Of a stretch of DNA of 39,858 nucleotides, positions 9,871 through 39,046 are shown piece by piece. The position numbers and the translations under genes were made by a program. The stretch is taken from positions 1 through 39,858 of the forward strand of contig CALKOA010000035.1 in NCBI GenBank assembly GCA_938091655.1. Reading direction: 5' to 3'. The stretch comes from an uncultured Balneolaceae bacterium. GTDB lineage: Bacteria; Bacteroidota; Rhodothermia; Balneolales; Balneolaceae. Below the pieces are notes generated by a model that worked only from the letters and a program-made list of their open reading frames with translations, had not been told where the DNA came from and searched no databases. The stretch's first letter is position 1; the number at the start of each line of letters is the position of its first letter.

Positions 9871-10434
9871 ATGGAATATATAGTAGATATATTTATAGGC
9901 TTACCCCTACTTTATTTAGCTTATAAAGGTGCAGTTAATGGCATAGTTAAAGAAATATTGAACATCGTTGGTTTGGTATTGGCGGTTTATATAACGTTTA
10001 ACTACATGGATATTGCAGCAACTTATGTAGCCGCGTTATTTGAAGATGGTACCCAAAGTTTTATACCCTTTCTGGCTGGCGCTCTATTATTTATTATAGT
10101 CTTATCTATAGTTTCTTTGATTGCATATTGGACACGAGCGTGGTTAGATGCTGTAAAGCTCGGTACCGTAAATAGATTCTTAGGATCTTTATTTGGTATG
10201 CTCAAAGGCACAATTCTTATGAGTGCGATATTTTTATTATTGGCAGGGTTTCAGGTTCCACGAGAAGAGCTCAGGGAAGAATCCATACTCTATCCTTATG
10301 TAATTCAGGCAGCTCCACTTAGCTACAATGTAATTACAGCCGCTTACCCGGGCGCCGAGAATTTTACAGACACTATTCGTAAAACATTAGAAAACTATAA
10401 CCCGGTGGATAAATTACCGGTGATTAATCCATAA
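9871..10434 (+). CDS. cvpA: CvpA family membrane protein
   Basis: A 187-residue inner-membrane protein with about four hydrophobic segments (roughly 1-20, 27-48, 64-90 and 103-128). It has the CvpA hallmarks: an N-terminal segment ending YKGAVNGIVKEI and the NRFLGSLFGMLKGTI loop before the last helix. CvpA was named for colicin V production and is linked in some bacteria to envelope or bile stress; its biochemical role is unknown. It sits 27 bases after the YqeY gene and 8 bases before tyrS. Confidence 0.9.
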   Translation: MEYIVDIFIGLPLLYLAYKGAVNGIVKEILNIVGLVLAVYITFNYMDIAATYVAALFEDGTQSFIPFLAGALLFIIVLSIVSLIAYWTRAWLDAVKLGTVNRFLGSLFGMLKGTILMSAIFLLLAGFQVPREELREESILYPYVIQAAPLSYNVITAAYPGAENFTDTIRKTLENYNPVDKLPVINP

Positions 10435-10442
10435 TCCGTACA

Positions 10443-11657
10443 ATGAGCGTTTTAGCAGTTGAGCAACAATTAGCACTAATCAAACGAGGTGCAGTTGACA
10501 TTCTACCAGTCGAAGAATTAAAAGAAAGACTAAGCAAATCGATTGAAACGTCTACACCCTTAAAGGTAAAGCTCGGTGTAGATCCAACAAGGCCAGATTT
10601 ACATTTAGGGCATTCCGTAATTTTGCGCAAACTACGTCAGTTTCAAGACTTAGGTCATGAAGCCATTTTAATTATTGGTGGTTTTACAGCAATGATTGGA
10701 GATCCAACAGGGCAAAACACTACAAGACCACCACTTACAAAAGAAGAGGTAGCATTAAACGCTCAAAGTTATATTGATCAAGCAAAAAAAATATTGGATA
10801 CCAATCGGTTACAGATAGTGAATAATTTAGATTGGTTAGGACCGATGTCTTTTATGGATGTAATCCATCTTAGTTCAAAAATGACCGTTGCTCGAATGAT
10901 TGAGCGGGACGATTTCTCAAAGAGATTTTCAAACAATGAGCCGATTTCACTTCATGAGTTTTTATACCCACTAGCTCAGGGCCAAGATTCTGTTCACTTA
11001 GAAAACGACATAGAACTAGGTGGTACAGATCAAAAGTTTAACTTATTGGTCGGCCGAAATTTACAAAAAGAACGTGGTTTAAACCCTCAAGTCTGTTTAA
11101 TGATGCCATTGCTTGTTGGTACAGACGGTACCGCAAAGATGTCTAAATCATACGATAACTATATTGGCATTAATGAAGACCCCAACAATATGTATGGGAA
11201 AGCCCTATCTATTCCGGACAACCTTATCTACACCTATGTTGAATTGACAACGGATATTCCCAATGAAGATTTGCCAGCCGTACAAAAGAAGATTGAAGTT
11301 GACCCACGAAATGCTAAACATGATTTAGCGTACACACTAGTAGAGATGTATCACGGTAGGGAAGCAGCGGAAGGAGCTAGGCTCCATTTTGAAACAACCG
11401 TCATTCAAAAGAAGGTCCCAGATGACGCTCCTGAGTATAAGCTAAAAGGCGGACAAGAATACCGAATTCTAGATATCATATCGGCTCTAAAATTTTCCCC
11501 AAGTAATGGGGAGGCAAAACGATTAATAAAACAAGGTGGAGTGAGTCTGGATGATGTAAAAATCACGGATGTTAACTATGGTTTTATAGCCAAGGAGGGG
11601 AATGAGCAGGTGTTGAAAGTAGGTAAGAGAAAATTTGCTCTGCTAAAAAGCGATTAA
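10443..11657 (+). CDS. tyrS: Tyrosyl-tRNA synthetase
   Basis: A class I aminoacyl-tRNA synthetase that charges tRNA-Tyr. At 404 residues it carries the HIGH motif as HLGH at 54-57 and KMSKS at 232-236. The tyrosine-pocket segment LYPLAQGQDSV with ELGGTDQKFNLLVGR is present, as is a C-terminal S4 RNA-binding domain (EAKRLIKQGGVSLDD). The order of these motifs fits the TyrZ-like subtype. It starts 8 bases after cvpA, and the exonuclease gene follows after a single base. No T-box or other leader is visible. Confidence 0.96.
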   Translation: MSVLAVEQQLALIKRGAVDILPVEELKERLSKSIETSTPLKVKLGVDPTRPDLHLGHSVILRKLRQFQDLGHEAILIIGGFTAMIGDPTGQNTTRPPLTKEEVALNAQSYIDQAKKILDTNRLQIVNNLDWLGPMSFMDVIHLSSKMTVARMIERDDFSKRFSNNEPISLHEFLYPLAQGQDSVHLENDIELGGTDQKFNLLVGRNLQKERGLNPQVCLMMPLLVGTDGTAKMSKSYDNYIGINEDPNNMYGKALSIPDNLIYTYVELTTDIPNEDLPAVQKKIEVDPRNAKHDLAYTLVEMYHGREAAEGARLHFETTVIQKKVPDDAPEYKLKGGQEYRILDIISALKFSPSNGEAKRLIKQGGVSLDDVKITDVNYGFIAKEGNEQVLKVGKRKFALLKSD

Positions 11658-12924: not shown

Positions 12925-14979
12925 CTATAGCTCTTCTTCCAATTTGCCAATTTGGTCTCGAATTCTAGCGGCCTCCTCGAACTCCATATTTTTTGCCGCA
13001 TGCAGCATAGTCATTCTTAAGTGGTCTAAAAGCTTATCCTTTGACTCAAAATGAACTTCATTCATGGCGGAATTGGCTTTATAGGACAGTCCTTTATCGT
13101 CAACTCTAATACTCTCCATGTAATCCGATTGGGCTGCTGCTTCTGCTTCTTTGGAAAAGTCCACTTTTTGAGTGGAAATAAGGGCAGGGTCAACCAGCGG
13201 TTTAAGCTCTTTTTGGATCGTTTTTGGAGTGATACCGTGTTTCTCATTGTAGGCCATTTGGATTTCTCGGCGACGATCTGTTTCTTCAATTACTTTACGC
13301 ATGCTTTCGGTTATTTTATCAGCATACATAATGGCTTTACCATCTACATTTCTCGCCGCCCTTCCGACAATTTGAAACAGAGAGGTTTCAGAGCGCAAAA
13401 AGCCTTCTTTATCAGCATCCATGATAGCCACTAAGCTCAATTCTGGAATATCAATACCTTCTCTTAAAAGGTTTATTCCTACTAGCACATCAAAATCACC
13501 TCTACGAAACTTGTATAAAACCTCTATACGTTCTAGAGCATCAAGCTCACTATGCATGTAAGCGGCGCTAATGCCTATTTCTTTCAAGTAGGCGCTCAGT
13601 TCTTCAGAAAGTCTTTTGGTTAGAGTGATAACCAAGACGCGTTCTTTTTTCGCAACACGAAGCCGAATTTCTTCCAAAAGATCGTCAACTTGATTTCCAA
13701 GCGGTCTTACCTCTAAAACGGGCTCCATTAAACCAGTAGGACGGATAATTTGTTCAGTAAATACTCCTTCGCTTTTTACCAGTTCATAATCAGCGGGTGT
13801 AGCACTCACAAAAATGGCTTGATTAATCATTCCTTCCCATTCCTGAAAGGTTAAGGGTCGGTTATCCAACGCCGAGGGTAATCGGAAACCATGTTCGACC
13901 AATTCAGTTTTTCGAGAACGATCCCCGCCAAACATGGCATTTATTTGTGGCACGGTTTGGTGGCTTTCATCCACTACCAGTAAAAAATCTTCCGGGAAAT
14001 AATCAATGAGACAATAAGGCCGTTCACCTGGCTTTCGTGCGCTTAGATGCCTAGAATAATTTTCAATTCCACTACAATACCCTATTTCTTGGATCATTTC
14101 TAAGTCAAACAGAGTTCTTTGTTCAAGCCTTTTTGCTTCCAGGTACTTATCAAGTTCCAAAAGCTCATCGACTCGTTCGGTTAACTCCGTTCTAATAGCT
14201 TTTATAGTCTCTTCTTGCCGACCTTTTGAAGTAACGTAATGGGAAGCAGGATATATGCGGAATTCGTGCACTTGCTCCACGATTGAGCCGGTATCAACAT
14301 TAAAAATAGCCATTTGTTCAATCTCATCGCCCCAAAAAGTAATACGTAAACCCTCATCAGAATAGGCGGGAAACACATCAACCACGTCGCCGCGAACTCT
14401 AAAAACACCGCGGTGAAAATCATTATCCTTTCGGGTATAATGGAGGTCTACTAAATCATAGAGCAAGGTATTACGGGGAATTTCTGTCCCAACGGTTAAG
14501 GTAATGATCAGTTTTTCATATTCTGAGGGAGAACCAATGCCATAAATGCAACTCACTGAGGAAACGATGACTACATCGCGACGCCCGGACAGTAATGAGC
14601 TGGTGGCGCGTAACCTAAGGCGCTGAATTTCCTCGTTTATGGATAAATCTTTTTCGATGAACTTATCTTGCGAAGAGATATATGCCTCGGGTTGATAGTA
14701 ATCATAATAGGAAATAAAAAACTCAACCCTGTTCTCGGGAAAAAAATCACTTAGTTCGCGAAATAGCTGTGCGGCCAACGTTTTGTTATGGCTCATGACT
14801 AAGGTAGGTCGTTGAACCTGTTCAATTACACTGGCTACGGTTCGTGTTTTTCCGGATCCAGTAATTCCCAATAGAGTTTGAAAACGGTCGCCTGCAAGAA
14901 TTCCTTCTGTCAATTCTTGGATTGCCTGGGGCTGGTCGCCTGCTGGGTTAAAAGGGGAGTGAAGCTTGAATTCAGACAT
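12925..14979 (-). CDS. uvrB: Excinuclease ABC subunit UvrB
   Basis: UvrB is the damage-verification helicase of nucleotide excision repair, working with UvrA and UvrC. The 684-residue protein has Walker A GITGSGKT at 38-45, the damage-probing beta-hairpin region with SYYDYYQPEAYI, the DESH box in VVDESHQTVPQI, helicase motif VI in QIVGRAARN, and a C-terminal UVR domain (MEFEEAARIRDQIGKLEEEL) that binds UvrC. Length matches the family. It is transcribed alone, divergent from the chorismate mutase gene across 140 bp and convergent with the MarR gene. No LexA-type operator is recognisable upstream. Confidence 0.97.
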   Translation of the reverse strand: MSEFKLHSPFNPAGDQPQAIQELTEGILAGDRFQTLLGITGSGKTRTVASVIEQVQRPTLVMSHNKTLAAQLFRELSDFFPENRVEFFISYYDYYQPEAYISSQDKFIEKDLSINEEIQRLRLRATSSLLSGRRDVVIVSSVSCIYGIGSPSEYEKLIITLTVGTEIPRNTLLYDLVDLHYTRKDNDFHRGVFRVRGDVVDVFPAYSDEGLRITFWGDEIEQMAIFNVDTGSIVEQVHEFRIYPASHYVTSKGRQEETIKAIRTELTERVDELLELDKYLEAKRLEQRTLFDLEMIQEIGYCSGIENYSRHLSARKPGERPYCLIDYFPEDFLLVVDESHQTVPQINAMFGGDRSRKTELVEHGFRLPSALDNRPLTFQEWEGMINQAIFVSATPADYELVKSEGVFTEQIIRPTGLMEPVLEVRPLGNQVDDLLEEIRLRVAKKERVLVITLTKRLSEELSAYLKEIGISAAYMHSELDALERIEVLYKFRRGDFDVLVGINLLREGIDIPELSLVAIMDADKEGFLRSETSLFQIVGRAARNVDGKAIMYADKITESMRKVIEETDRRREIQMAYNEKHGITPKTIQKELKPLVDPALISTQKVDFSKEAEAAAQSDYMESIRVDDKGLSYKANSAMNEVHFESKDKLLDHLRMTMLHAAKNMEFEEAARIRDQIGKLEEEL

Positions 14980-15119
14980 GTGATAAACTAATTAAACAAA
15001 GGTAAGGCCTTTTTCTTTAACAAGTGTCCCACAGGATAAATTCATTGTGAAAGGATTGGTAAATCAAATACACATGGCGTATTATAGCGAGAGTTTAGAA
15101 CTAGAGTGAAACAAACTGT

Positions 15120-16253
15120 ATGCCGCATAAAAACAAAAATCTAGAAGTTTTTCGCGATCAAATAGATTCAATAGATCAACAAATACTTGATCTATTGGTT
15201 GAGCGTGGACACATCGTTAAACAAGTTACTGAAGCAAAATTAGCGCATCAGTTACCTGTTTTCGTTCCTAAGCGAGAACAGGAAAAGACGGCTGCCTTTA
15301 AGGAATTAGCTCGAGAAAAGGGAATAGACCCAGCCTGGGCAGAGGACTTTTTACGATTAATTATGGGCTCTTCAAGGCAGCGTCAATCTGAAGCGGCATT
15401 CCCAAGGTCTACCCAAGTGGCTAAACATATCATTTATATTGGAGGCGACGGGGGTATGGGTAAGTTGTACAAGCGTATTTCAGATCAAACCGGGCACAAG
15501 ACAACAAGTATAGATAAAAGTAACTGGTATGAATTAGATGGAGCCTTAAAGACCGCCGATATGGTTATTATTACGGTTCCAATTCACGTTACGGAATCAG
15601 TTATTCAGAGGCTAGAGGGAAGGCTTCCAGAACAAGTGATTCTGGCTGATTTCACTTCAAATAAACGGCGCCCTATAGAACAGATGAAAGCCATTCATAG
15701 CGGTCCTATTTTGGGTTTGCATCCAATGCATGGCCCTGATGTCGAGAATCTCTCTAAACAACTTATGGTGGTGTGTCCGGTTCAGCAGGCAGAGCAAAGC
15801 AAATGGTTTTTAGAGCAATGTGAACTTTGGGGCATGAGGTTAATAGAGGCAGAGGCCGAAAAACACGATCATGTAATGCATTTGGTTCAAGGCTTACGAC
15901 ATTTTGTTGCTTTATTGCATGGCTCTTTTATGAAGCATTATGATCTTAATCCCAATGATATGTTGGATTACTCGTCTCCCATTTATCGCGCCGAGCTCAT
16001 GATGACGGGAAGAATCTTTGCACAAAGTGCTGAGCTCTATGCAGACATTGTTTTTTCCAATGAAGAAAGGCGAGCCCTATTACTTAGATTTTTTGAGCAT
16101 CACGCACTACTAGCCGAGATGGTAAAAAACAACGACCGAAATGGTTTTATTAAAGAGTTTGAACAGGTAACCGATTTTTTTGGATCATTCGCAACTAAGG
16201 CCTTAGAAGAGTCTGGATACCTTATTAACCGATTGGCAGATCGCTTTGCTTAG
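15120..16253 (+). CDS. tyrA: Bifunctional chorismate mutase / prephenate dehydrogenase (T-protein)
   Basis: This converts chorismate to prephenate and then to 4-hydroxyphenylpyruvate for tyrosine synthesis. Residues about 8-90 are an AroQ-type mutase (FRDQIDSIDQQILDLLVERG and VFVPKREQ). Residues about 107 onward form an NAD-binding domain with GGDGGMG, followed by IITVPIHVTE and the catalytic histidine H201 in LGLHPMHGPD. The C-terminal helical dimer domain contains DYSSPIYRAELMMTGRIFAQ. At 377 residues it is colinear with the E. coli T-protein (373) and very similar over its whole length, which is unexpected for a Bacteroidota-like genome. It is a single-gene unit, divergent from uvrB. Confidence 0.95.
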   Translation: MPHKNKNLEVFRDQIDSIDQQILDLLVERGHIVKQVTEAKLAHQLPVFVPKREQEKTAAFKELAREKGIDPAWAEDFLRLIMGSSRQRQSEAAFPRSTQVAKHIIYIGGDGGMGKLYKRISDQTGHKTTSIDKSNWYELDGALKTADMVIITVPIHVTESVIQRLEGRLPEQVILADFTSNKRRPIEQMKAIHSGPILGLHPMHGPDVENLSKQLMVVCPVQQAEQSKWFLEQCELWGMRLIEAEAEKHDHVMHLVQGLRHFVALLHGSFMKHYDLNPNDMLDYSSPIYRAELMMTGRIFAQSAELYADIVFSNEERRALLLRFFEHHALLAEMVKNNDRNGFIKEFEQVTDFFGSFATKALEESGYLINRLADRFA

Positions 16254-16369
16254 AATTAAAGCGGTCTATAATATATAGTTGTTTGAGGCTGCATTCATAG
16301 CGACTCTTAACACAATGCGTGCTCACAATTAGTATCAGCTAAAGTATTGTTTTATTACACTTGCGAATG

Positions 16370-16389
16370 TGTATTATTGAAATAATACA
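16370..16389. promoter_or_regulatory. Perfect 9-bp inverted repeat, candidate operator upstream of the TPR-AraC genes
   Basis: TGTATTATT (16370-16378) and AATAATACA (16381-16389) are exact reverse complements around a GA spacer. The palindrome sits 54 bp before the ATG of the first TPR-AraC gene in an otherwise featureless 190-bp spacer, where a promoter or operator would be expected. The size fits a dimeric regulator. It is not followed by a T tract, so it is not a terminator. Confidence 0.45.
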
Positions 16390-16443
16390 ATTTAGTTAGC
16401 TTCTTTACTTTGTTGGGTACAGTTTACTAGAATAGGGGTAGAT

Positions 16444-18417
16444 ATGAGCCGCACTTTCTTTGCACGATTGTGTGTGGTAGCAATGTGTATGTATAGTACA
16501 TTCACTAATGCTCATTATACACATAGACATTTGTTTATCGGACATACATACCTGTCTCAACAGACAGGTATGGCCTTGAAAAATAATGGGGATGAAAAAG
16601 CGGCCACACAGAACCGGATTGAGCGTTCGCAGCGTCTTAGAATGGATTTGGAGTCGTCTAATAAATACCAAGAAAGTGAATTCTTACGTCTTATCAATGG
16701 ATTTACACAAGAGATTGAAACATTTAACGAGGCATCTTTAAATCTACTACGTAATATCTCAGACGCGGCCTACAATAAGAATATGAGTTTGTTGTTTATT
16801 GCAACCCAAGGCCTGCTTATTGATTATGATTTGTCAAACCACCATTTAGGTGAGGCTAAGAAAAAGCGAAACATTTTGGTTGAGCAACGATTTTTACCTA
16901 GTAGCAATGATAGATTAAATTTTGAGTTAGAACTAGATTTATTGGCTATTTGGAATTACGAATTTACCAATTAAAAAAGTATTGAGTTAGGGCAGCAGTT
17001 AAAAACAGGCAGTTTATCAAACAGGCAGAAAATAAAACTTTACCGATTACTAGGGCAGGCACATGCAGATGCATGAGATTTTTCCACTAGCATAGATTAT
17101 TATTTGTGTACGTTAGATGCCTCGCGGTCTACGATGGATAAAACAAATAAGAAGAAGGAAACACTCATTCTAAATGCTATTGGAGTAATTTTTGAAACGC
17201 TAGGAGATTATGATCAAGCACAAATCTATTATGATAAGGCGCTAATATTAGCGTACAACAGCGGTTTAGATGAATTACAAATGGTAGGTTTATCCAATTT
17301 AGGGGTACTATATAAAAACCAAGAACTTTATGAAGAGGCATTGGTCATGTACAAAAGCGCCCTTGTTCTTGCCAAAGAAAGGCAGGATGTATATGTAATG
17401 GCTCAAAATAGGTTTAATATTGGCAATGTATTTGCTGAAAGACTACAATATGACTCTGCCATGGTGTATTACAAAGCAGTTGAAGAGGAGGTAAAAAATT
17501 GGGATTCACGTCAGGAATACAGTTTAGCGTTAATGATGCAGGCGTCAATAAACATGGTACGAGAAAGTTATAATGAGGCGGAAACGCAACTCACTTTAGC
17601 CTTAGATATTCAAGAACAGATAAACAATCCATATATAAAGCTTGAGCTCTATCACCTATTGTCTAGCTTGTATGAAAAGAAAGAGAATTTTGAAGTAGCC
17701 CTTAGGTACCACAATTTAGAAGAAACCTTAAAGGATAGCTTGAACTCTGAGCAACAAGCGTCTGAGATTCAAAAGAAAATTACAGAGTTCGAACGAGCTC
17801 AAATAGAGTTACAAACAATTTTAGATCAAGAAAAAGAACGAGTTATTTATACAAGGAATCTTGGAATAAGCGTGATTCTTATAGTTTTAGTGCTTTTTAT
17901 TGTCATCATTTTTGCTTTGGATAAGAAGCAAAGAAAAGTGGAAAATGAATTATTTTCAGCGACTCTTAAGCTAACCCAATTTAATGAAGATGAGGTAAAA
18001 AGAAGTGTTACCGAAATATATTTCGGTACCCCGTCGCAAACGCTTATTAACCAAAATAAACAACTATGGGAGTTGTTTAACAGTATTATGGAGAAGATGA
18101 TAGCAGAAAAGTGGTACAGAAATCCCGAATTCACACTAAATGAAGTAACAAGAAGGGTTAGTAGTAACACAAAGTATGTAAGTAATGCAATAAAATTATT
18201 TTCAGGTTTAAACTTCAATTATTTCGTAAACACATTCAGGGTAAAGGAAGCAACAGAGCGATTGTTGCGGGATAATTTTTCTATGACTATGGAAGAACTC
18301 ATGCATCAATGCGGCTTTCAAAACAGAGGGACTTTTTATAGAGCTTTTAATGCTAAAGTTGGGATGACACCGAAAGAATTTAGAAAAAAGGTGGTTTCTG
18401 AAAGGGAGATAGTGTAG
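16444..18417 (+). pseudogene. TPR-transmembrane-AraC regulator interrupted by two in-frame stop codons
   Basis: One continuous frame of 657 codons is broken by TAA at 16972-16974 and TGA at 17074-17076. Before the first stop lies a signal-like N-terminus (FFARLCVVAMCMYSTFTNA) and a helical region. The 33 codons between the stops and those after them continue tetratricopeptide repeats, and the TGA falls where a TPR glycine is expected (AHADA-stop-DFSTSIDYY). Then come more TPRs (to about 17750), a coiled coil, one membrane helix (ISVILIVLVLFIVIIFAL) and a C-terminal AraC HTH with YVSNAIK and GFQNRGTFYRAFNAKVGMTP. The downstream gene is a paralogue aligning through the same region. A shorter product from TTG 17104 or ATG 17134 could still be made, but it would lack the export signal. 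Probably a recent nonsense pseudogene; readthrough is the alternative. Confidence 0.75.
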
Positions 18418-18470
18418 GTTAGTCGGAATGTAAATTCAGATAATTTCTTTACCCAGGCGTTAGAAGTACG

Positions 18471-20372
18471 ATGATAAGAACGCAGTTAAAAAAATATAAA
18501 CCCTTTGCGCAAGGAATAAAGAGGCAGCTAACAGGGTATAACTATTTCGCCTCTTTGTTGCTATTTTTATTAGCCAATATTTGGCAAGGTGTAGGAGAAA
18601 ATCAAAATTTAGAAACTAATTCAGCAGAAGTGTTGGACCGCTATGAACGCCTGAAAATTGAATATGCATCCGAGTTTACAAACAAAGATTTTCTAGCACA
18701 GGTTGATAGCTTAATGAATCGCTTGCAACAATTAAATGACGGTGATACGTACCTAGAAATTGGTCTGGAAAAGTGGCAAGCTCTCAATCAAATTGGTTTT
18801 TACACGATGGTTCAAGATGAGATTGAATATGTTTTCAGCCAAAACTCCTTAAAAATTTCCTTAGAGAACAAAGAAAAAGCGAGTTTATTACTCATGCAAG
18901 CATATGTGAACTCTAGAGCCATTACCAAAGCCCAAAGCTTAGGGGTTGAGATTTTGCAAGCTACTGAAAATATTGAAACAGCCACAAGAGCTAAATACTA
19001 TTTAAGTGTTGTATATGCGTATGCCGGTAAATACCAAGAATCTATTGAACTACTAACCGAGAATCTAGATTATTATATTACCATTAATGATACCGCGGCG
19101 CAGATTGTTGTATTGAACAATGCAGCACAGACAAACCAGGATTTAAATCAACCAACACAAACCGAATATTTTTTTAAAAGGGCAGAGACCCTAGCTATTG
19201 AATCGGGTGATTTAGAGAACCAGTTGCTAATATACTCCAATATGGGAGTATTCTATAAAACGCAACAAAATTATGAACTAGCCAGGGCATACTATGAAAA
19301 AGGGCTAACTATTTCATTACAACGCAATGATTTATCTGCCACGGCCCAAAACATGTTCAATATCGGTAATATCTATTATGAGGAAGGAAATTATAGGGAG
19401 GCGGTCAATTACTACAATGAGTCCCTTGAGATAGTAGAGGAATTAAATTATGAGTATCCTAAGGCACTCATATATATGATGAAAGGCGCCGTTTCCATTG
19501 ATTTAGGATTTTATGATGAAGCGAATCAGTATTTAATGCAGGCGAAGAAAATAAATAGCTTAATTAATGACCTTGAGTCTAGTTTATTTCTTTATGACAA
19601 ACTATCAACCCTTAAGCAGCTTACTGGTGATTATCAGGCGGCATTTGAATATCTAAGCAATATAGTAGATTTGAAAGACCAGAAGTTTGCCTCTACCTCT
19701 TTGGATAGTTTAAATCAAGCAGTTATTAAGTTTCAATTAAATGAAGAAATGCTTCGATTAGAGAATACGGCTATTGAGTATGAAAAATTAATACAACAAC
19801 GAGTATTTGGAATAGCGCTAATCCTGCTATTAGGGATTGGGTTATCCATCACTTTAGTATTAAATAATCGAAAAAAAGCGTTGATAGAAAAACTATTTAG
19901 TAATTACAAGACAGAGAGACAAGCAGAGTCAAATACTCAAACTAAAGGAAAAAAGAGCCTAATTAGCTCGTCAAATAATAGCTCAAACAATGTATTTGAA
20001 AAGTTATTTTTCATTAATAAATCAAAAGGAAGCATACCTTCCGAACATCAGGATTTATTTAATCAAATAGGTACGGTAGTATTGGAAGAGGAATTATTTC
20101 GAGACACGGAACTTACCTTAGTTAAATTAGCAAAGAGGGTTAATAGTAATACCACGTATGTAAGCGAGGCGATTAATTCGAATCTTGGTATGAGATTTAA
20201 TAGTTTTTTGAATCGCATACGTATTCATGAGGCACAAAAAATCATGCTTGAGCAGGATGAGCCCATTGATCGAGTAATGCGTATGAGTGGGTACAGAAAT
20301 CGAAGCACTTTTTATCGGGCATTCCAAGCCGAAACAGGATTAACACCGAGAGAATTTATTACAAGTAAATAA
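18471..20372 (+). CDS. TPR-transmembrane-AraC family regulator (intact paralogue)
   Basis: A 633-residue membrane-bound one-component regulator. An N-terminal hydrophobic helix (about 25-42) is followed by a helical region and at least five tetratricopeptide repeats (about 150-410, for example YSNMGVFYKTQQNYELARAY and NMFNIGNIYYEEGNYREAVN). A second membrane helix is at about 445-465 (FGIALILLLGIGLSITLVL), then a polar linker rich in Ser and Asn, and a C-terminal AraC-type HTH (about 535-630) with TYVSEAINS and GYRNRSTFYRAFQAETGLTP. The layout predicts a periplasmic TPR sensor joined to a cytoplasmic DNA-binding domain. It follows its interrupted paralogue by 53 bp and precedes the VOC gene by 37 bp. 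Ligand and targets are unknown. Confidence 0.88.
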   Translation: MIRTQLKKYKPFAQGIKRQLTGYNYFASLLLFLLANIWQGVGENQNLETNSAEVLDRYERLKIEYASEFTNKDFLAQVDSLMNRLQQLNDGDTYLEIGLEKWQALNQIGFYTMVQDEIEYVFSQNSLKISLENKEKASLLLMQAYVNSRAITKAQSLGVEILQATENIETATRAKYYLSVVYAYAGKYQESIELLTENLDYYITINDTAAQIVVLNNAAQTNQDLNQPTQTEYFFKRAETLAIESGDLENQLLIYSNMGVFYKTQQNYELARAYYEKGLTISLQRNDLSATAQNMFNIGNIYYEEGNYREAVNYYNESLEIVEELNYEYPKALIYMMKGAVSIDLGFYDEANQYLMQAKKINSLINDLESSLFLYDKLSTLKQLTGDYQAAFEYLSNIVDLKDQKFASTSLDSLNQAVIKFQLNEEMLRLENTAIEYEKLIQQRVFGIALILLLGIGLSITLVLNNRKKALIEKLFSNYKTERQAESNTQTKGKKSLISSSNNSSNNVFEKLFFINKSKGSIPSEHQDLFNQIGTVVLEEELFRDTELTLVKLAKRVNSNTTYVSEAINSNLGMRFNSFLNRIRIHEAQKIMLEQDEPIDRVMRMSGYRNRSTFYRAFQAETGLTPREFITSK

Positions 20373-20409
20373 AAATCAACGCATCCGTAATTCTTATCTA
20401 ACCCCCGCT

Positions 20410-21498
20410 ATGAATCGACCTAAAGTAATATCTGGCATACAACAAATTGGTATCGGGAACACCGATGTGCTACAAACAACGGAGTGGTATCGGCGCCATT
20501 TTGGAATGGATATCATGGTTTTTGATGATGAGGCGACAGCCAATCTCATGCTACCTTACACAGGTGGCAAGCCTCATGATCGTCGCGCTATTCTTAGCTT
20601 AAGTATGCGTGGTGGAGGGGGCTTTGAAATATGGCAGTATACCTCTCGAAAGCCTACTGCAATGGAAGGAGAAGTTTACTTAGGCGATCTGGGTATTAAC
20701 GCTGCAAAAATTAAAAGCGTGGACGTTCAAAAGAGCTATGAAGAGTTCAATATGAAGGGTCTTAATGTGGTTACTTCATTAAAAAACAATCCCATTGGAG
20801 AACCTCATTTTTTTGTTAAAGATCTACATGCGAATCTTTTTCAGGTTATTCAGGGGCAATCTTTTTTCCGGAAAAAAGAACGAATGTTAACTGGAGGGGT
20901 GGCTGGTGCGCTAATTGGTTCGACGGATATAGATCGATCCTTAACTCTTTATCGAGATATTCTTGGCTACGATACTGTAATCTATGATGAGGAAGGGATT
21001 TTCGATGATTTTGAAGGGCTTAATGGGGCCAATGTTTCCTATCGACGCTGCTTAGTTCGGCATTCACGGCCCAGAAAAGGGGGATTCAGTGCACTTTTTG
21101 GACCCACTGAAATTGAGTTGGTTCAACGCATCGATACCGAGGCCAAATTAAGCCCCCCGAAAAAATTGTTCCATAACCGATATTGGGGGGATCCAGGATT
21201 TATTCATCTTTGCTTCGACGTACAAGGAATGAACGCACTTAAAGAGGAATGTGAATCAAAAGGATATCCCTTTACTGTCGATAGTGCGAGTAGTTTTGAT
21301 ATGGGAGAAGCAGCCGGCCGATTTACCTACATTGAAGATCCAGATGGGACGCTAATTGAGTTTGTTGAAACTCATAAGGTGCCAATCGCAAAAAAGTTTG
21401 GCCTGTTTGTGGATATGACTAAAAGAGATCCCGAAAAATCACTACCAAAATGGATGCTTCAGGCCCTATCTTTATCTCGTATGAAGCCTTTATCCTAG
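20410..21498 (+). CDS. Two-domain VOC (glyoxalase/dioxygenase superfamily) protein
   Basis: A 362-residue cytoplasmic protein with two vicinal-oxygen-chelate modules, about residues 8-140 (IQQIGIGNTDVLQTTEWYRRHFGMDI ... GEPHFFVKDLHANLFQVIQG) and 163-325 (GALIGSTDIDRSLTLYRDILGYDTV ... YIEDPDGTLIEFVETHKV). The second module has a plausible metal triad, with a His in FIHLCFDV and a Glu in LIEFVETH. The substrate is not apparent; two-domain VOC proteins include ring-cleaving dioxygenases and 4-hydroxyphenylpyruvate dioxygenase, but this lacks the C-terminal signature of the latter. The 37-base gap to the TPR-AraC gene suggests co-transcription or at least a functional link. It converges on the DUF1643 gene. 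Confidence 0.8.
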   Translation: MNRPKVISGIQQIGIGNTDVLQTTEWYRRHFGMDIMVFDDEATANLMLPYTGGKPHDRRAILSLSMRGGGGFEIWQYTSRKPTAMEGEVYLGDLGINAAKIKSVDVQKSYEEFNMKGLNVVTSLKNNPIGEPHFFVKDLHANLFQVIQGQSFFRKKERMLTGGVAGALIGSTDIDRSLTLYRDILGYDTVIYDEEGIFDDFEGLNGANVSYRRCLVRHSRPRKGGFSALFGPTEIELVQRIDTEAKLSPPKKLFHNRYWGDPGFIHLCFDVQGMNALKEECESKGYPFTVDSASSFDMGEAAGRFTYIEDPDGTLIEFVETHKVPIAKKFGLFVDMTKRDPEKSLPKWMLQALSLSRMKPLS

Positions 21499-21556
21499 CA
21501 ACTGCTAAAGCAACCATTGCAACCACAGTGTACTTGGGTTGAACCTACCAGAATAC

Positions 21557-22114
21557 TTAACGGTTCAAGGTTTTTTGTAGATAGTCACTTAGGGCAAAAC
21601 TCTCCAATGGCGCGTCCTTACGAAGGTACAATGGATGATGGGGATGGCCATTTTTTGAATGAGCCCCTCTAGTATAAAAATGAGGGTTCGAATCCTTAAT
21701 TGCATCGTGAATATCCGATAAACAGCGAAGTAAATAAGGACGTTTTTCTATTAAGGCCCCCCAGGCACACCACACATGAACCCGTGATTCTTGACTAAAC
21801 TCGTGCAAATAATGCCGAATCCAGTGTATATTTTCTTGATGAAGTACCGGCTGAATTCTTTTATGCATTTTATCAGGATTGGTGGCTCTTTGAGGATATA
21901 AGTTTAACATCAACCAGCCATTATACCCGTTTTCCTCAGCAAATCGTGCAACCGAGGCAACGGTTGGGTCTAATCGCTCTGGAGTGGCCGTGCTTGGATT
22001 TACCCCAAAACAAACAAAAGGGCGAGTTCCTTTCCTGCCCAAAGTAAAACGGGCTTTTGGTTCAGAATGATCGTACACCCAGGGCATTTCTTTTATATCC
22101 TTTACCAATTGCAT
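21557..22114 (-). CDS. DUF1643 domain-containing protein
   Basis: A 185-residue soluble protein with the DUF1643 pattern: RKGTRPFVCFGVNPSTATPE, DPTVASVARFAEENGYNGWLMLNLYPQRATNP, VWCAWGALIEKR and the C-terminal KNGHPHHPLYL. The conserved NPSTA, Trp/Gly and HP motifs are intact. The function of the family is not established. Its ATG overlaps the stop of the thioredoxin-like gene (sequence TAATG on the minus strand), so the two are translationally coupled. Confidence 0.88.
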   Translation of the reverse strand: MQLVKDIKEMPWVYDHSEPKARFTLGRKGTRPFVCFGVNPSTATPERLDPTVASVARFAEENGYNGWLMLNLYPQRATNPDKMHKRIQPVLHQENIHWIRHYLHEFSQESRVHVWCAWGALIEKRPYLLRCLSDIHDAIKDSNPHFYTRGAHSKNGHPHHPLYLRKDAPLESFALSDYLQKTLNR

Positions 22115-23628: not shown

Positions 23629-25953
23629 TTAATCTACAGGAACTTCGGATAAAACAACAGGAAACCGACTCGTTCGAACAAAATTCCACCATTTTTTGGT
23701 CGACTCGTAGCGTTGGCGATAACGTTCCCGCCCACTGCCGCTTTGTAGGGCAGGGTGGTCTGCCATGCCCTCTAACCAAGTTGTAACAGAAGCCGAATCC
23801 AGTCGGCCTATATTTCGGTCCAGAATCACTAAGTGGTTGGAGAAATCCCATGTTAATTCGGCAGTATGAGAAGGGTCATCTATGATAAGCTTTTCAAGGT
23901 CATCCGATCTTTCACCCATTATTTTTTCATTTAGCCAAAGTGTAACCAAGCCCGATAGACGATTTGATCTCTGTTGAGACGATGCGGCATCATAATCGTC
24001 TGTGCCGGATAGAGTGGAAAAAGTTGCATAACGATTAAATTCATCGTTCCAATAACGGTACACCGTCGACTCTCGCAATCTAGTGTCATATGCGTTAAAT
24101 TGAGAGGAATCTGGCAGATAATCACCATACTCAATGGCAACATAATCCAGCCAAAGCAAACTATCTTTTAGACTCATAGCTCGCCGATTAGGTCGGCGAT
24201 TACTTGTCGAATCAAGCTTGTTATCCAGTTGAATTGCCCGCTCCCATTCCCTGTTCATCACGAATGCATCACGCATTAGGCGTGTTGCAGACTCTGAGGT
24301 ATCACGCAAGCTAATATTTTGAATCACCAATGCAGGTCTATCTAGCCATAGAGCATGAGAGAACCAACGAACCCTTGCAGATTCAGAAGTACTTAGAGAA
24401 TTAAATGCTGTGTTCAGTACTTCATTCGCTTGTTCAACTCTAGCTGTTTCCCAATAGTAATTCCATTCATCAAGTAAGGCATAATCCGAAGCAGGATTAC
24501 GAGGACAAGCTAACTGCCAAATAGAGGTTTGCCCAAATAGCTCATTCGAACGCCGTCTGTCAGTTTCATTGGTTTGTTGCTTTAATGAACTTAAATATTG
24601 ATGCCATTCCTCTACGAGTTGTTCAAGAGGGGGATAGTTTTTGGATAGTTTAGAGCTACTATAGGATTCCTTTAGATAGGCTACGGGATATTCTTGAAGT
24701 AAGAATCCCACAAAGGCCCCCGCTACAGTATAGCTTAATCCAGATGATTCCGAATAAAACCCCCATGGACTGAATAATTTCTGAATGGTTTCGATCGGAG
24801 GAAATTCGGGTTGAGCCGCTACAAGCTCATTCAGTGTGCTATGTTGACTTGCTCCCTGGGTTATGGCTTCAGCTAAACCTTCTATGAGAGCGATGTTCCA
24901 AGACCCATTAAACAATAAGTTTCCAAAATCTTTGGCAACCACGTGAACCAGTTCATGCTCCAAAACACTTGCTAGATGATTATGCGCAATATGCAATTGA
25001 TCTTTAGTTAACCAAATGGGTACGTAACTGGTTTCTTTAGCACCTACGAGTTTCTTTTTTTGCCACTCATTTGCATAGATATAGCTCTCGATTTGTTTCC
25101 CTTCAGGCCACTCTATTTCAAGCCTATCGAGTAGATTTTGCAAATGAAATTCATGCCGAAAGGCCCAGCGCTCAACCTCAGCAATTGGAATAGTATTATC
25201 TGCATACAAATTAAAATGAGGCGTTTGAACATGAGTAGTAAGATTTTTTTTAAGCGAAGAATAGGTGGTAACACCGCCCCAATACCCTGCGGTAGAATAC
25301 CCAATGAGTAATGCAAGAAGGATACTGAACGTTCCTAAGCGTTTACTTAGTTTAGGCCCACCCTTTACTTGTTTGGTGCTTAGTAAAAGGAATAGGGCTC
25401 CCCAAAGAAGAGTTATCACACGAAAGGGAATGTACGCTGCTGGAAAAGGGGCTAGAAAATCATAAAGAGGACCAGGCCAATATCCCCAAAGATGGTTAAA
25501 AAAATACAGTTGAGGGGAGGTAAAAAAAATAATTAACCAACTGCCAACTCCAATCCCTAGAATCCATAAGCCAGCAATTAGGGTTGGAAATATAAACCCT
25601 TTCACAGAGATAAAACGACCTATTGTACTTCCTAGAAATAGGCTTAAATAAGGACCCAATATCCAAAACAAAAGGCCCTCCCAAGAAAAGCATCCTCTCC
25701 ACAGGTCAAAAATGATAACCACACCAGCAAAAAAACTAAGGAGGAGACAATCCCTAATAACCCTATGGTAATAGGAAAGGGTGGGTTTGAATAAAAACCT
25801 GCGTTGAATACGCGCCTCTCGAATCGTACCCCACAAGCCTGCAATAATGGAGGCAATAAAAGCCAAATCTACATGAAGCGTACCAATGAGCGGAAGCTGA
25901 CTAGCACCTATCCCAGCTATAAGAATAGTGAGGACATGGGAGACCCTGAACAT
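23629..25953 (-). CDS. Polytopic membrane protein with an HExxH (peptidase MA-like) domain
   Basis: A 774-residue protein I cannot assign to a named gene. Residues 1 to about 235 are strongly hydrophobic with roughly six to eight membrane helices. A domain of about residues 240-450 contains HELVH at 333-337 in SVLEHELVHVVAKDFG, followed 21 residues later by E358 in ALIEGLAEA, the spacing of a gluzincin zinc site with Glu as third ligand. The rest (about 460-774) is helical and TPR-like, with repeated Trp/Leu segments and no further membrane helices. This predicts a membrane-anchored zinc peptidase with its catalytic domain outside the membrane. It is flanked by proline dehydrogenase and the deiodinase-like gene on the same strand, neither of which explains its role. 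Confidence 0.75.
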   Translation of the reverse strand: MFRVSHVLTILIAGIGASQLPLIGTLHVDLAFIASIIAGLWGTIREARIQRRFLFKPTLSYYHRVIRDCLLLSFFAGVVIIFDLWRGCFSWEGLLFWILGPYLSLFLGSTIGRFISVKGFIFPTLIAGLWILGIGVGSWLIIFFTSPQLYFFNHLWGYWPGPLYDFLAPFPAAYIPFRVITLLWGALFLLLSTKQVKGGPKLSKRLGTFSILLALLIGYSTAGYWGGVTTYSSLKKNLTTHVQTPHFNLYADNTIPIAEVERWAFRHEFHLQNLLDRLEIEWPEGKQIESYIYANEWQKKKLVGAKETSYVPIWLTKDQLHIAHNHLASVLEHELVHVVAKDFGNLLFNGSWNIALIEGLAEAITQGASQHSTLNELVAAQPEFPPIETIQKLFSPWGFYSESSGLSYTVAGAFVGFLLQEYPVAYLKESYSSSKLSKNYPPLEQLVEEWHQYLSSLKQQTNETDRRRSNELFGQTSIWQLACPRNPASDYALLDEWNYYWETARVEQANEVLNTAFNSLSTSESARVRWFSHALWLDRPALVIQNISLRDTSESATRLMRDAFVMNREWERAIQLDNKLDSTSNRRPNRRAMSLKDSLLWLDYVAIEYGDYLPDSSQFNAYDTRLRESTVYRYWNDEFNRYATFSTLSGTDDYDAASSQQRSNRLSGLVTLWLNEKIMGERSDDLEKLIIDDPSHTAELTWDFSNHLVILDRNIGRLDSASVTTWLEGMADHPALQSGSGRERYRQRYESTKKWWNFVRTSRFPVVLSEVPVD

Positions 25954-27321: not shown

Positions 27322-28281
27322 ATGAATCTCGAATCTCAAAAAGATGATACAAATAGAACGACCAAGCACATTTTTCCCCTTGTTTTAGGCCTATTTTTTG
27401 TGAGCTTCTCGCATCTAACTTTTGCTCAATCACCGGTTGCCTCACAAGAGTTTACTGTTGGTGATTATGCCGAGGTGGAAGTGACTACGAGTGGTGGACG
27501 AATCGAAGTGATCGGAAAAAATACGGCTAAAGTCACCGTAAACGCGATTGCTTATGTGAATGGAAGGAGGTCTTCAAATGCAAATTTAGATAACTGGTCT
27601 ATAACCATAGAAGAAATTCAGGGCAAAATAGTAGCAAAAGCTGAAAAAGAAAGTAATATGGGGTGGTTACGAGGTGGAAATAACGTGAGCATTGCTTTCG
27701 AAATTGAAACGCCGGTTAATACAGAGCTCAATGCCAGAACTTCAGGGGGTTCGGTCAGTATTGAAAACTTGTCTGGGAACCAGTATGCTCGTACATCAGG
27801 CGGTAGCATGGAGGCCAACAATATCCAAGGAAATGTTGAGATGCGGACTTCTGGGGGGGCAATACGACTTGAAAATATCGATGGGCAAGCTGAAGTAGCT
27901 ACTAGCGGTGGGTCAATACGTGCTAAAAAGGTAACTCAAGGACTAAAAGCCAGAACCAGTGGCGGCTCATTAAATCTTCAGGAAATATCAGGAAGTTTAG
28001 AGGCCAGAACATCGGGAGGTAGCATAGAAGTACATTTAATTAATCCTATTGAGTACATAGAAGTTTCAACTTCTGGGGGGAATGTAACCGTTGAAGTACC
28101 AGAAAACCTTGGATATGATTTAGCGTTAACCGGGAGTAGAGTTCGAACAGAGTTAAGAAATTTTACCGGGAGCTCTTCTAGAGATTCCATAAATGGAGCA
28201 ATGAATGGGGGTGGGATACCTTTAAAAGCCCGGACCTCTGGGGGCTCTGTCTCGCTTAAGTATTATAAAGCGGCGTCTTAG
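27322..28281 (+). CDS. Exported DUF4097-type beta-strand repeat protein
   Basis: A 319-residue protein with a signal peptide (hydrophobic core IFPLVLGLFFVSFSHLTFA, probable cleavage near residue 35). The mature part is a regular array in which Thr-Ser-Gly-Gly recurs nine times, mostly as ARTSGGS, at about 18-22 residue intervals. Each is followed by a short beta strand (VSIENL, MEANNI, IRLENI, IRAKKV, LNLQEI, IEVHLI). This suggests a right-handed beta-solenoid exposed in the periplasm or on the surface. The family is DUF4097/DUF4098-like, often called putative adhesins; the function is unknown. It is a single gene closed by a terminator. Confidence 0.85.
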   Translation: MNLESQKDDTNRTTKHIFPLVLGLFFVSFSHLTFAQSPVASQEFTVGDYAEVEVTTSGGRIEVIGKNTAKVTVNAIAYVNGRRSSNANLDNWSITIEEIQGKIVAKAEKESNMGWLRGGNNVSIAFEIETPVNTELNARTSGGSVSIENLSGNQYARTSGGSMEANNIQGNVEMRTSGGAIRLENIDGQAEVATSGGSIRAKKVTQGLKARTSGGSLNLQEISGSLEARTSGGSIEVHLINPIEYIEVSTSGGNVTVEVPENLGYDLALTGSRVRTELRNFTGSSSRDSINGAMNGGGIPLKARTSGGSVSLKYYKAAS

Positions 28282-37969: not shown

Positions 37970-39046
37970 ATGTATAGATTAATGCGAGTAAACGCAGCAA
38001 ATAGAAACGGCCTTGGTCGTTTCTATTTTGTTTTAGGGCTATATACTTATCTACTGCTGGCAATCACATGTAGCCCATCCACGGCATATGAAACTTTACA
38101 TGGGCAAGCCCAGGGATCTACTTATTCCATACAGTTTGCACAAGATCAATTGGTTGATGGCATAGAATTACACGGGGAGATAGATCAGTTGTTATCACGT
38201 ATTGATTCTTCTATGAGCACCTACGTGCCAAGCTCACTCATTTCTAGTGTGAACCAATCTGAAGGTGCTTGGGTTAGAATCGATGATATGTTTATGAAAG
38301 TCTTGACTAGATCGATAGAGGTAGCCAACGAAACTGATGGCGCCTTTGATCCAACAATTGGCTCGGTCGTTCGATTATGGGGTTTTGGATTTGATGAAAT
38401 TCGTGGGGACATTAGCGACAAAAATATCCAAGAAGCATTGGCACGTAGTGGATTCGATCAGATTAAGATTGATACTTTAGCTTCTAGTGTGAGCATCCCC
38501 AAAGGATTTTCTATTGATTTCAACGCTATTGCGCAGGGATTTTCGGTGGATACATTGGCGTTATTATTAGAATCTAAAGGCATACAAAACTACATGGTAG
38601 AATTAGGGGGAGAAGTTCGCACCCGAGGATATAATGCTCAAGGTGATCATTGGAATATTGGTATAGATCGCCCCATTAACGAATTAGCAACAGGCAGAGA
38701 ATTACAGGCAATTATTACTTTGAAAAATCAATCCCTAGCTACTTCAGGTAATTATCGAAAATTTTGGATAGATGAACAGACCGGTATCAAATATGCTCAT
38801 ACTATAGACCCAAAAACGGGGCGACCAGCGATGAATCAATTACTAAGTGCAAGTATTGTGCATGTCGAGGCGACCATGGCAGACGCTTATGCCACCGCTT
38901 GTATGGTTTGGGGACATTTAAAGTGCATTGAGTTTCTAGAAGGTAATGCAGACTATTTTGGAGTACTTATCTATACCGATGAAGAAGGGAATTGGTTTAC
39001 TTATTACAGCCCGGAGCTAAACATAACGATGGTTCAGACAGACTAA
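37970..39046 (+). CDS. apbE: FAD:protein FMN transferase ApbE
   Basis: ApbE transfers FMN from FAD to Thr or Ser in S-G-A-T type motifs, here on NqrB and NqrC. The 358-residue exported protein has an N-terminal hydrophobic helix (RFYFVLGLYTYLLLAITC), possibly a lipoprotein signal although Thr before the Cys is atypical. The segments DPTIGSVVRLWGFG, SIDFNAIAQGFSVD, YMVELGGEVRTRG, TSGNYRKFWID and AHTIDPKTGRPA are all present. An alternative start is ATG 37982. Its place directly after nqrF makes it the dedicated flavinyl transferase for the pump. Confidence 0.95.
   Translation: MYRLMRVNAANRNGLGRFYFVLGLYTYLLLAITCSPSTAYETLHGQAQGSTYSIQFAQDQLVDGIELHGEIDQLLSRIDSSMSTYVPSSLISSVNQSEGAWVRIDDMFMKVLTRSIEVANETDGAFDPTIGSVVRLWGFGFDEIRGDISDKNIQEALARSGFDQIKIDTLASSVSIPKGFSIDFNAIAQGFSVDTLALLLESKGIQNYMVELGGEVRTRGYNAQGDHWNIGIDRPINELATGRELQAIITLKNQSLATSGNYRKFWIDEQTGIKYAHTIDPKTGRPAMNQLLSASIVHVEATMADAYATACMVWGHLKCIEFLEGNADYFGVLIYTDEEGNWFTYYSPELNITMVQTD

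Follow-up and report, generated by a model that had tools for sequence, protein, structure and literature searches.

The TPR-transmembrane-AraC/HTH_18 regulators of Bacteroidota and Balneolota share one domain order, TPR_12 followed by a single transmembrane helix and HTH_18. The tandem pair of genes analyzed here has this same order, and no curated NCBIfam equivalog passes its cut-off for either protein. Their N-terminal TPR regions match the FimS-type TPR sensor histidine kinase (NCBIfam NF053520) with E-values of 1.8e-14 and 4.2e-16, which falls well short of the curated cut-off; unlike in the FimS-type proteins, the output domain of the pair is an AraC HTH, and a kinase domain was not found. 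The first gene of the pair (gene 1) is broken, and its closest described counterparts in this respect are young bacterial nonsense pseudogenes, e.g. those of Salmonella (Kuo and Ochman 2010, PMC2916853). Like these, gene 1 is broken in one lineage and intact in relatives, its sequence is otherwise well kept, and deletion is seen in related genomes. Unlike the young pseudogenes of Salmonella, the present locus appears to add allele replacement and at least two deletion forms within one marine Balneolaceae genus.

The window, that is, the whole stretch of 39,858 nucleotides analyzed, is one contig from a draft genome of 2.05 Mb in 149 contigs, about 90% complete (G000, the window genome). An initial contig scan with the protein of the gene 1 3' piece as query gave no matches, and relatives were located via alignment of the neighboring tyrA gene. 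They are marine, uncultured Balneola or Balneolaceae (phylum Balneolota), with nine genomes in the genus; a second genome of the same species as the window genome was not found. The Balneolaceae loci returned from outside the genus carry no matching pair beside tyrA, and in a search of 92 family genomes (E <= 1e-40) the pair was detected only in this genus, with no closer donor. The literature on membrane TPR-AraC regulators and on Balneolaceae pseudogenes yielded nothing useful. The relevant features of the window are as follows.

15120..16253, + strand: upstream flank tyrA, bifunctional chorismate mutase/prephenate dehydrogenase (NCBIfam NF008400; 9/9 genus genomes)
16444..16974, + strand: gene 1 5' piece, ORF of 176 aa that runs to the first premature stop and carries a putative signal peptide
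16972..16974, + strand: first premature stop, TAA (Gln/Gln/Asn in G001/G002/G007)
17074..17076, + strand: second premature stop, TGA (Gly, invariant in G001/G002/G007)
17104..18417, + strand: gene 1 3' piece, open frame encoding TPR repeats, a single transmembrane helix and an AraC-type HTH
17860..17919, + strand: gene 1 predicted transmembrane helix, GISVILIVLVLFIVIIFAL region (hydropathy)
18151..18387, + strand: gene 1 HTH_18/AraC-type DNA-binding domain (Pfam PF12833, E 4.2e-14)
18471..20372, + strand: gene 2, intact tandem paralogue (TPR, transmembrane helix, AraC HTH), 633 aa
20127..20357, + strand: gene 2 HTH_18 domain; its 3' part is the stretch surviving as a remnant in G003, G004, G005, G006 and G008
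20410..21498, + strand: downstream flank, glyoxalase/dioxygenase-superfamily protein (Pfam PF00903; 9/9 genus genomes)

Translation of the frame 16444-18417 on the forward strand gives 657 codons and a terminal TAG, interrupted by exactly two internal stops, TAA at codon 177 and TGA at codon 211. This agrees with the preliminary description, in which the frame was called clean but for these two codons; no frameshift is present, and the reverse strand of the same interval is crowded with stops. Homology to the orthologues in G001, G002 and G007 crosses both stops with the frame unchanged, in line with the earlier remark that the protein pattern continues past them. Compared with the orthologue in G001, gene 1 is 69% identical across the whole frame (657 aligned codons) and 76% identical over the 3' part, and the sole in-frame length difference, 15 bp, is divisible by three. 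Each lesion differs from the corresponding G001 codon by a single base and lies outside any simple repeat or invertible segment. The proposed check of the orthologous codons in relatives was made within the genus: neither stop is shared by any of the three intact orthologues, which have sense codons at both positions, and thus both stops are private to the window genome. The TGA indeed replaces a conserved glycine, as had been claimed.

The TPR repeats and the C-terminal HTH_18 exceed the Pfam gathering scores in gene 2 and in gene 1, the latter being a regulator of this kind by ancestry. By simple hydropathy only, the transmembrane signal is strong (3.43 and 2.69), and the N-terminal hydrophobic stretch, at residues 5-23 of the gene 1 5' piece, is moderate (about 1.2). 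Judging by the order of the domains, the intact proteins would sense with a TPR domain on the periplasmic side and signal via one membrane helix to an AraC-type DNA-binding domain in the cytoplasm. The 5' piece of gene 1 contains no Pfam domain, and its 176-aa product would be exported but have no output domain. The export signal would in turn be missing from a product initiated at TTG 17104 or ATG 17134. These two codons are not conserved as starts in G001, where no internal start is conserved, and no ribosome-binding site is recognisable at either, although few genes of the window show one. Gene 1 is most likely functionally null, because an output domain is absent from the 176-aa piece, and the 3' piece has neither an export signal nor a conserved start.

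The intact paralogue reported beside gene 1 is real, but it is neither close nor recent. Because gene 1 and gene 2 share only about 31% identity and G001, G002 and G007 each have both, the duplication is old, and the two genes are an ancient tandem pair, not a recent duplicate or copy. Being an ancient paralogue that has orthologues of its own, gene 2 should not simply be taken as a substitute for gene 1. The pair lies between tyrA and the glyoxalase gene in G001 and G002; in G007 it is found beside tyrA, with the glyoxalase gene on another contig. A tandem TPR-TM-HTH pair between these two flanks is the ancestral arrangement.

In the five remaining genomes, G003, G004, G005, G006 and G008 (loci L044, L045, L046, L048 and L049), the pair is deleted, and tyrA and the glyoxalase gene lie 240-341 bp apart, compared with about 4.2 kb where the pair is present. 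The leftover consists of 45-57 codons from the 3' end of the gene 2 HTH, with stops or frame breaks. The remnant in G003 and G004 begins within the HTH and keeps about 120 bp of the sequence downstream of tyrA; that in G005, G006 and G008 reaches a little further back into gene 2 and retains none of the tyrA-downstream sequence. The two remnant forms look like the products of separate deletions. The tandem pair is dispensable and has been lost repeatedly.

The part of gene 1 after the TGA shows dN/dS of 0.108 relative to G001 (CI 0.084-0.138), close to the 0.119 obtained for gene 2; the HTH gives 0.058 and the part before the TAA 0.197, and the estimate for the 33 codons between the stops was discarded (no convergence). 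Distances to G002 and G007 are used here solely as saturated in dS. At alignment columns where the other three orthologues agree, the window genome has 14 changes of its own, and G001 has 20. Hence there is no excess of changes on the lineage of the window genome, and relaxation is not detectable after the TGA, as expected if the gene is a very young pseudogene. Since the constraint after the TGA resembles that of gene 2 and the lineage shows no excess, the stops are recent. About 6% of random substitutions in the gene's own codons are nonsense, and two stops without a frameshift correspond to neutral decay of 0.005-0.03 substitutions per site, roughly 0.02, a value above about 0.05 being unlikely. 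In flanking genes, the nearest genome, G003, lies at a dS of about 0.22; the expected neutral decay is below this, and the inactivation of gene 1 is therefore recent on that scale. The absence of indels in gene 1 would be at most mildly expected had neutrality lasted long. The purifying selection measured after the stops reflects mostly the time before they arose and, taken alone, is compatible with continued use of the 3' piece.

It is thus highly probable, as far as sequence comparison can tell, that gene 1, once the gene of a membrane-anchored TPR-AraC regulator, has recently become a nonsense pseudogene. The preliminary description had offered a very young nonsense pseudogene as one of its two readings, and this reading is supported by the sense codons in the intact orthologues, the absence of detectable relaxation after the TGA and the loss of the locus in five related species. 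The best surviving alternative, which we consider improbable, is an assembly or base-calling artefact, i.e. gene 1 is intact and one or both stops were miscalled or result from strain mixing in the 149-contig draft. Internal-stop pseudogenes in low-coverage assemblies are often spurious products of assembly error (PMC11017572), and the constraint on gene 1 shows no loss. Nevertheless, when about 470 kb of the window genome's other contigs were compared with about 440 kb of G003, 73 other genes (27,016 codons) contained no internal stop and no frame change relative to their G003 orthologues. Scattered base-calling error is unlikely because these genes are free of internal stops, and two random miscalls would both fall in gene 1 with a chance of about 6e-4, (657/27,673) squared. 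Loss of the same locus in relatives also makes true decay plausible.

Even less probable, and very unlikely in our estimate, is that gene 1 is split yet used, either because translation of the 3' ORF begins at an internal start and yields a separate regulator, or through readthrough of the stops. Such use would fit the 437 open codons of the 3' ORF, with TPR, transmembrane helix and HTH intact, and its low dN/dS; the latter, however, is expected of a very young pseudogene. The privacy of the stops, the candidate starts at 17104 and 17134 with neither conservation in G001 nor a recognisable ribosome-binding site, the missing export signal, and the use of TAA and TGA as normal stops elsewhere in the window all argue against it. 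No recoding RNA element was detected among known Rfam families in 14000-22000. The other reading offered earlier, a switchable or readthrough gene, is thus not supported, given stops that are private point substitutions; a selected split likewise lacks support, and we found no positive evidence for a 3' part acting as a cytoplasm-facing variant. That the stops represent one state of a reversible, phase-variable switch can practically be dismissed: although the locus varies across the genus, with divergent alleles and deletions, both lesions are single-base changes outside any simple repeat or invertible segment, and we know of no switch that reverses two separate nonsense substitutions.

Besides the recent loss of gene 1, the pair as a whole shows a pattern of divergence unlike that of its flanks. 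The nucleotide tree of tyrA, the glyoxalase gene and uvrB joins the window genome with G003 (support 98), then G004, then G001; the protein tree is less resolved. The remnants in G003 and G004 point elsewhere. Informative sites agreeing with gene 2 of G001 versus gene 2 of the window number 30:2 in the G003 remnant and 29:1 in that of G004, whereas the flanking genes, counted in the same way, give the opposite direction, 118:292 and 148:238, respectively (Fisher p 1.7e-13 for G003 and 7.8e-11 for G004). The same remnants are 86-90% identical in nucleotide sequence to G001 and 70-74% to the window genome. Between the window genome and G001, dS is about 1.44 for the pair, compared with 0.33 for tyrA and 0.74 for the glyoxalase gene, and identity falls sharply at the tyrA stop. 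A locally higher synonymous rate, e.g. from weak codon bias, could contribute to the raised dS of the pair, but it would not give the 30:2 site pattern. These comparisons place the window pair and the remnants of its nearest relatives in different allele lineages. A similar contrast is observed between G002 (L053) and G007 (L055), where tyrA is 99% and the glyoxalase 96% identical, compared with protein identities of 57% for gene 1 and 63% for gene 2 and a saturated dS, indicating an allele replacement.

The window pair was probably exchanged in by recombination, because the G003 and G004 remnants resemble the G001 allele, against the flanking genes. Homologous recombination via the conserved flanks, which would move divergent alleles of the pair, is the simplest explanation; the allele in the window genome would then be an imported one. 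Should G000 and G003 be true sisters, either G000 would have regained the pair, or G003 and G004 would share their deletion by recombination.

Several other genes of the window are variable. A 774-aa protein without Pfam or NCBIfam match (23629-25953, - strand) is 85% identical in G001, and in G003 and G004 its counterpart is reduced to terminal fragments, i.e. another gene recently deleted in the closest relatives. The DUF4097 protein at 27322-28281 (+ strand) is intact in the window genome, G001 and G003; the counterpart in G004 (L058, around 10020-10644) is broken by stops and frame breaks. The ApbE-family gene at 37970-39046 (+ strand) has dS of 1.63 to G001 and 0.58 to G003, high beside its neighbors, and is possibly another exchanged segment.

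In the history we propose, the allele would have reached the window genome by homologous recombination via the conserved flanks; gene 1 may have lost its use before or after this exchange and would then have gained two point nonsense mutations. A broader and tentative proposal, which we regard as possible though rather doubtful, is that the pair is a fast-turnover allelic cassette, whose divergent alleles are exchanged via the tyrA and glyoxalase flanks beside deletion alleles and nonsense nulls, possibly maintained by frequency-dependent selection acting on the input of the periplasmic TPR sensor domain; the window allele would be one such null.

By itself, a regulator gene with two nonsense mutations in a single draft genome is nothing out of the ordinary. 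In kind this is ordinary gene loss; the locus itself has an unusually fast turnover, which is the more interesting side result. One sensor pair displays graded decay within a single marine genus, being intact, freshly broken, or deleted with two remnant forms, and its alleles are far more divergent than its flanks (in G002 and G007, 57-63% inside and 96-99% in tyrA and the glyoxalase). The locus is thus a usable natural experiment on how marine bacteria with small genomes gain, exchange and lose membrane-bound regulators.
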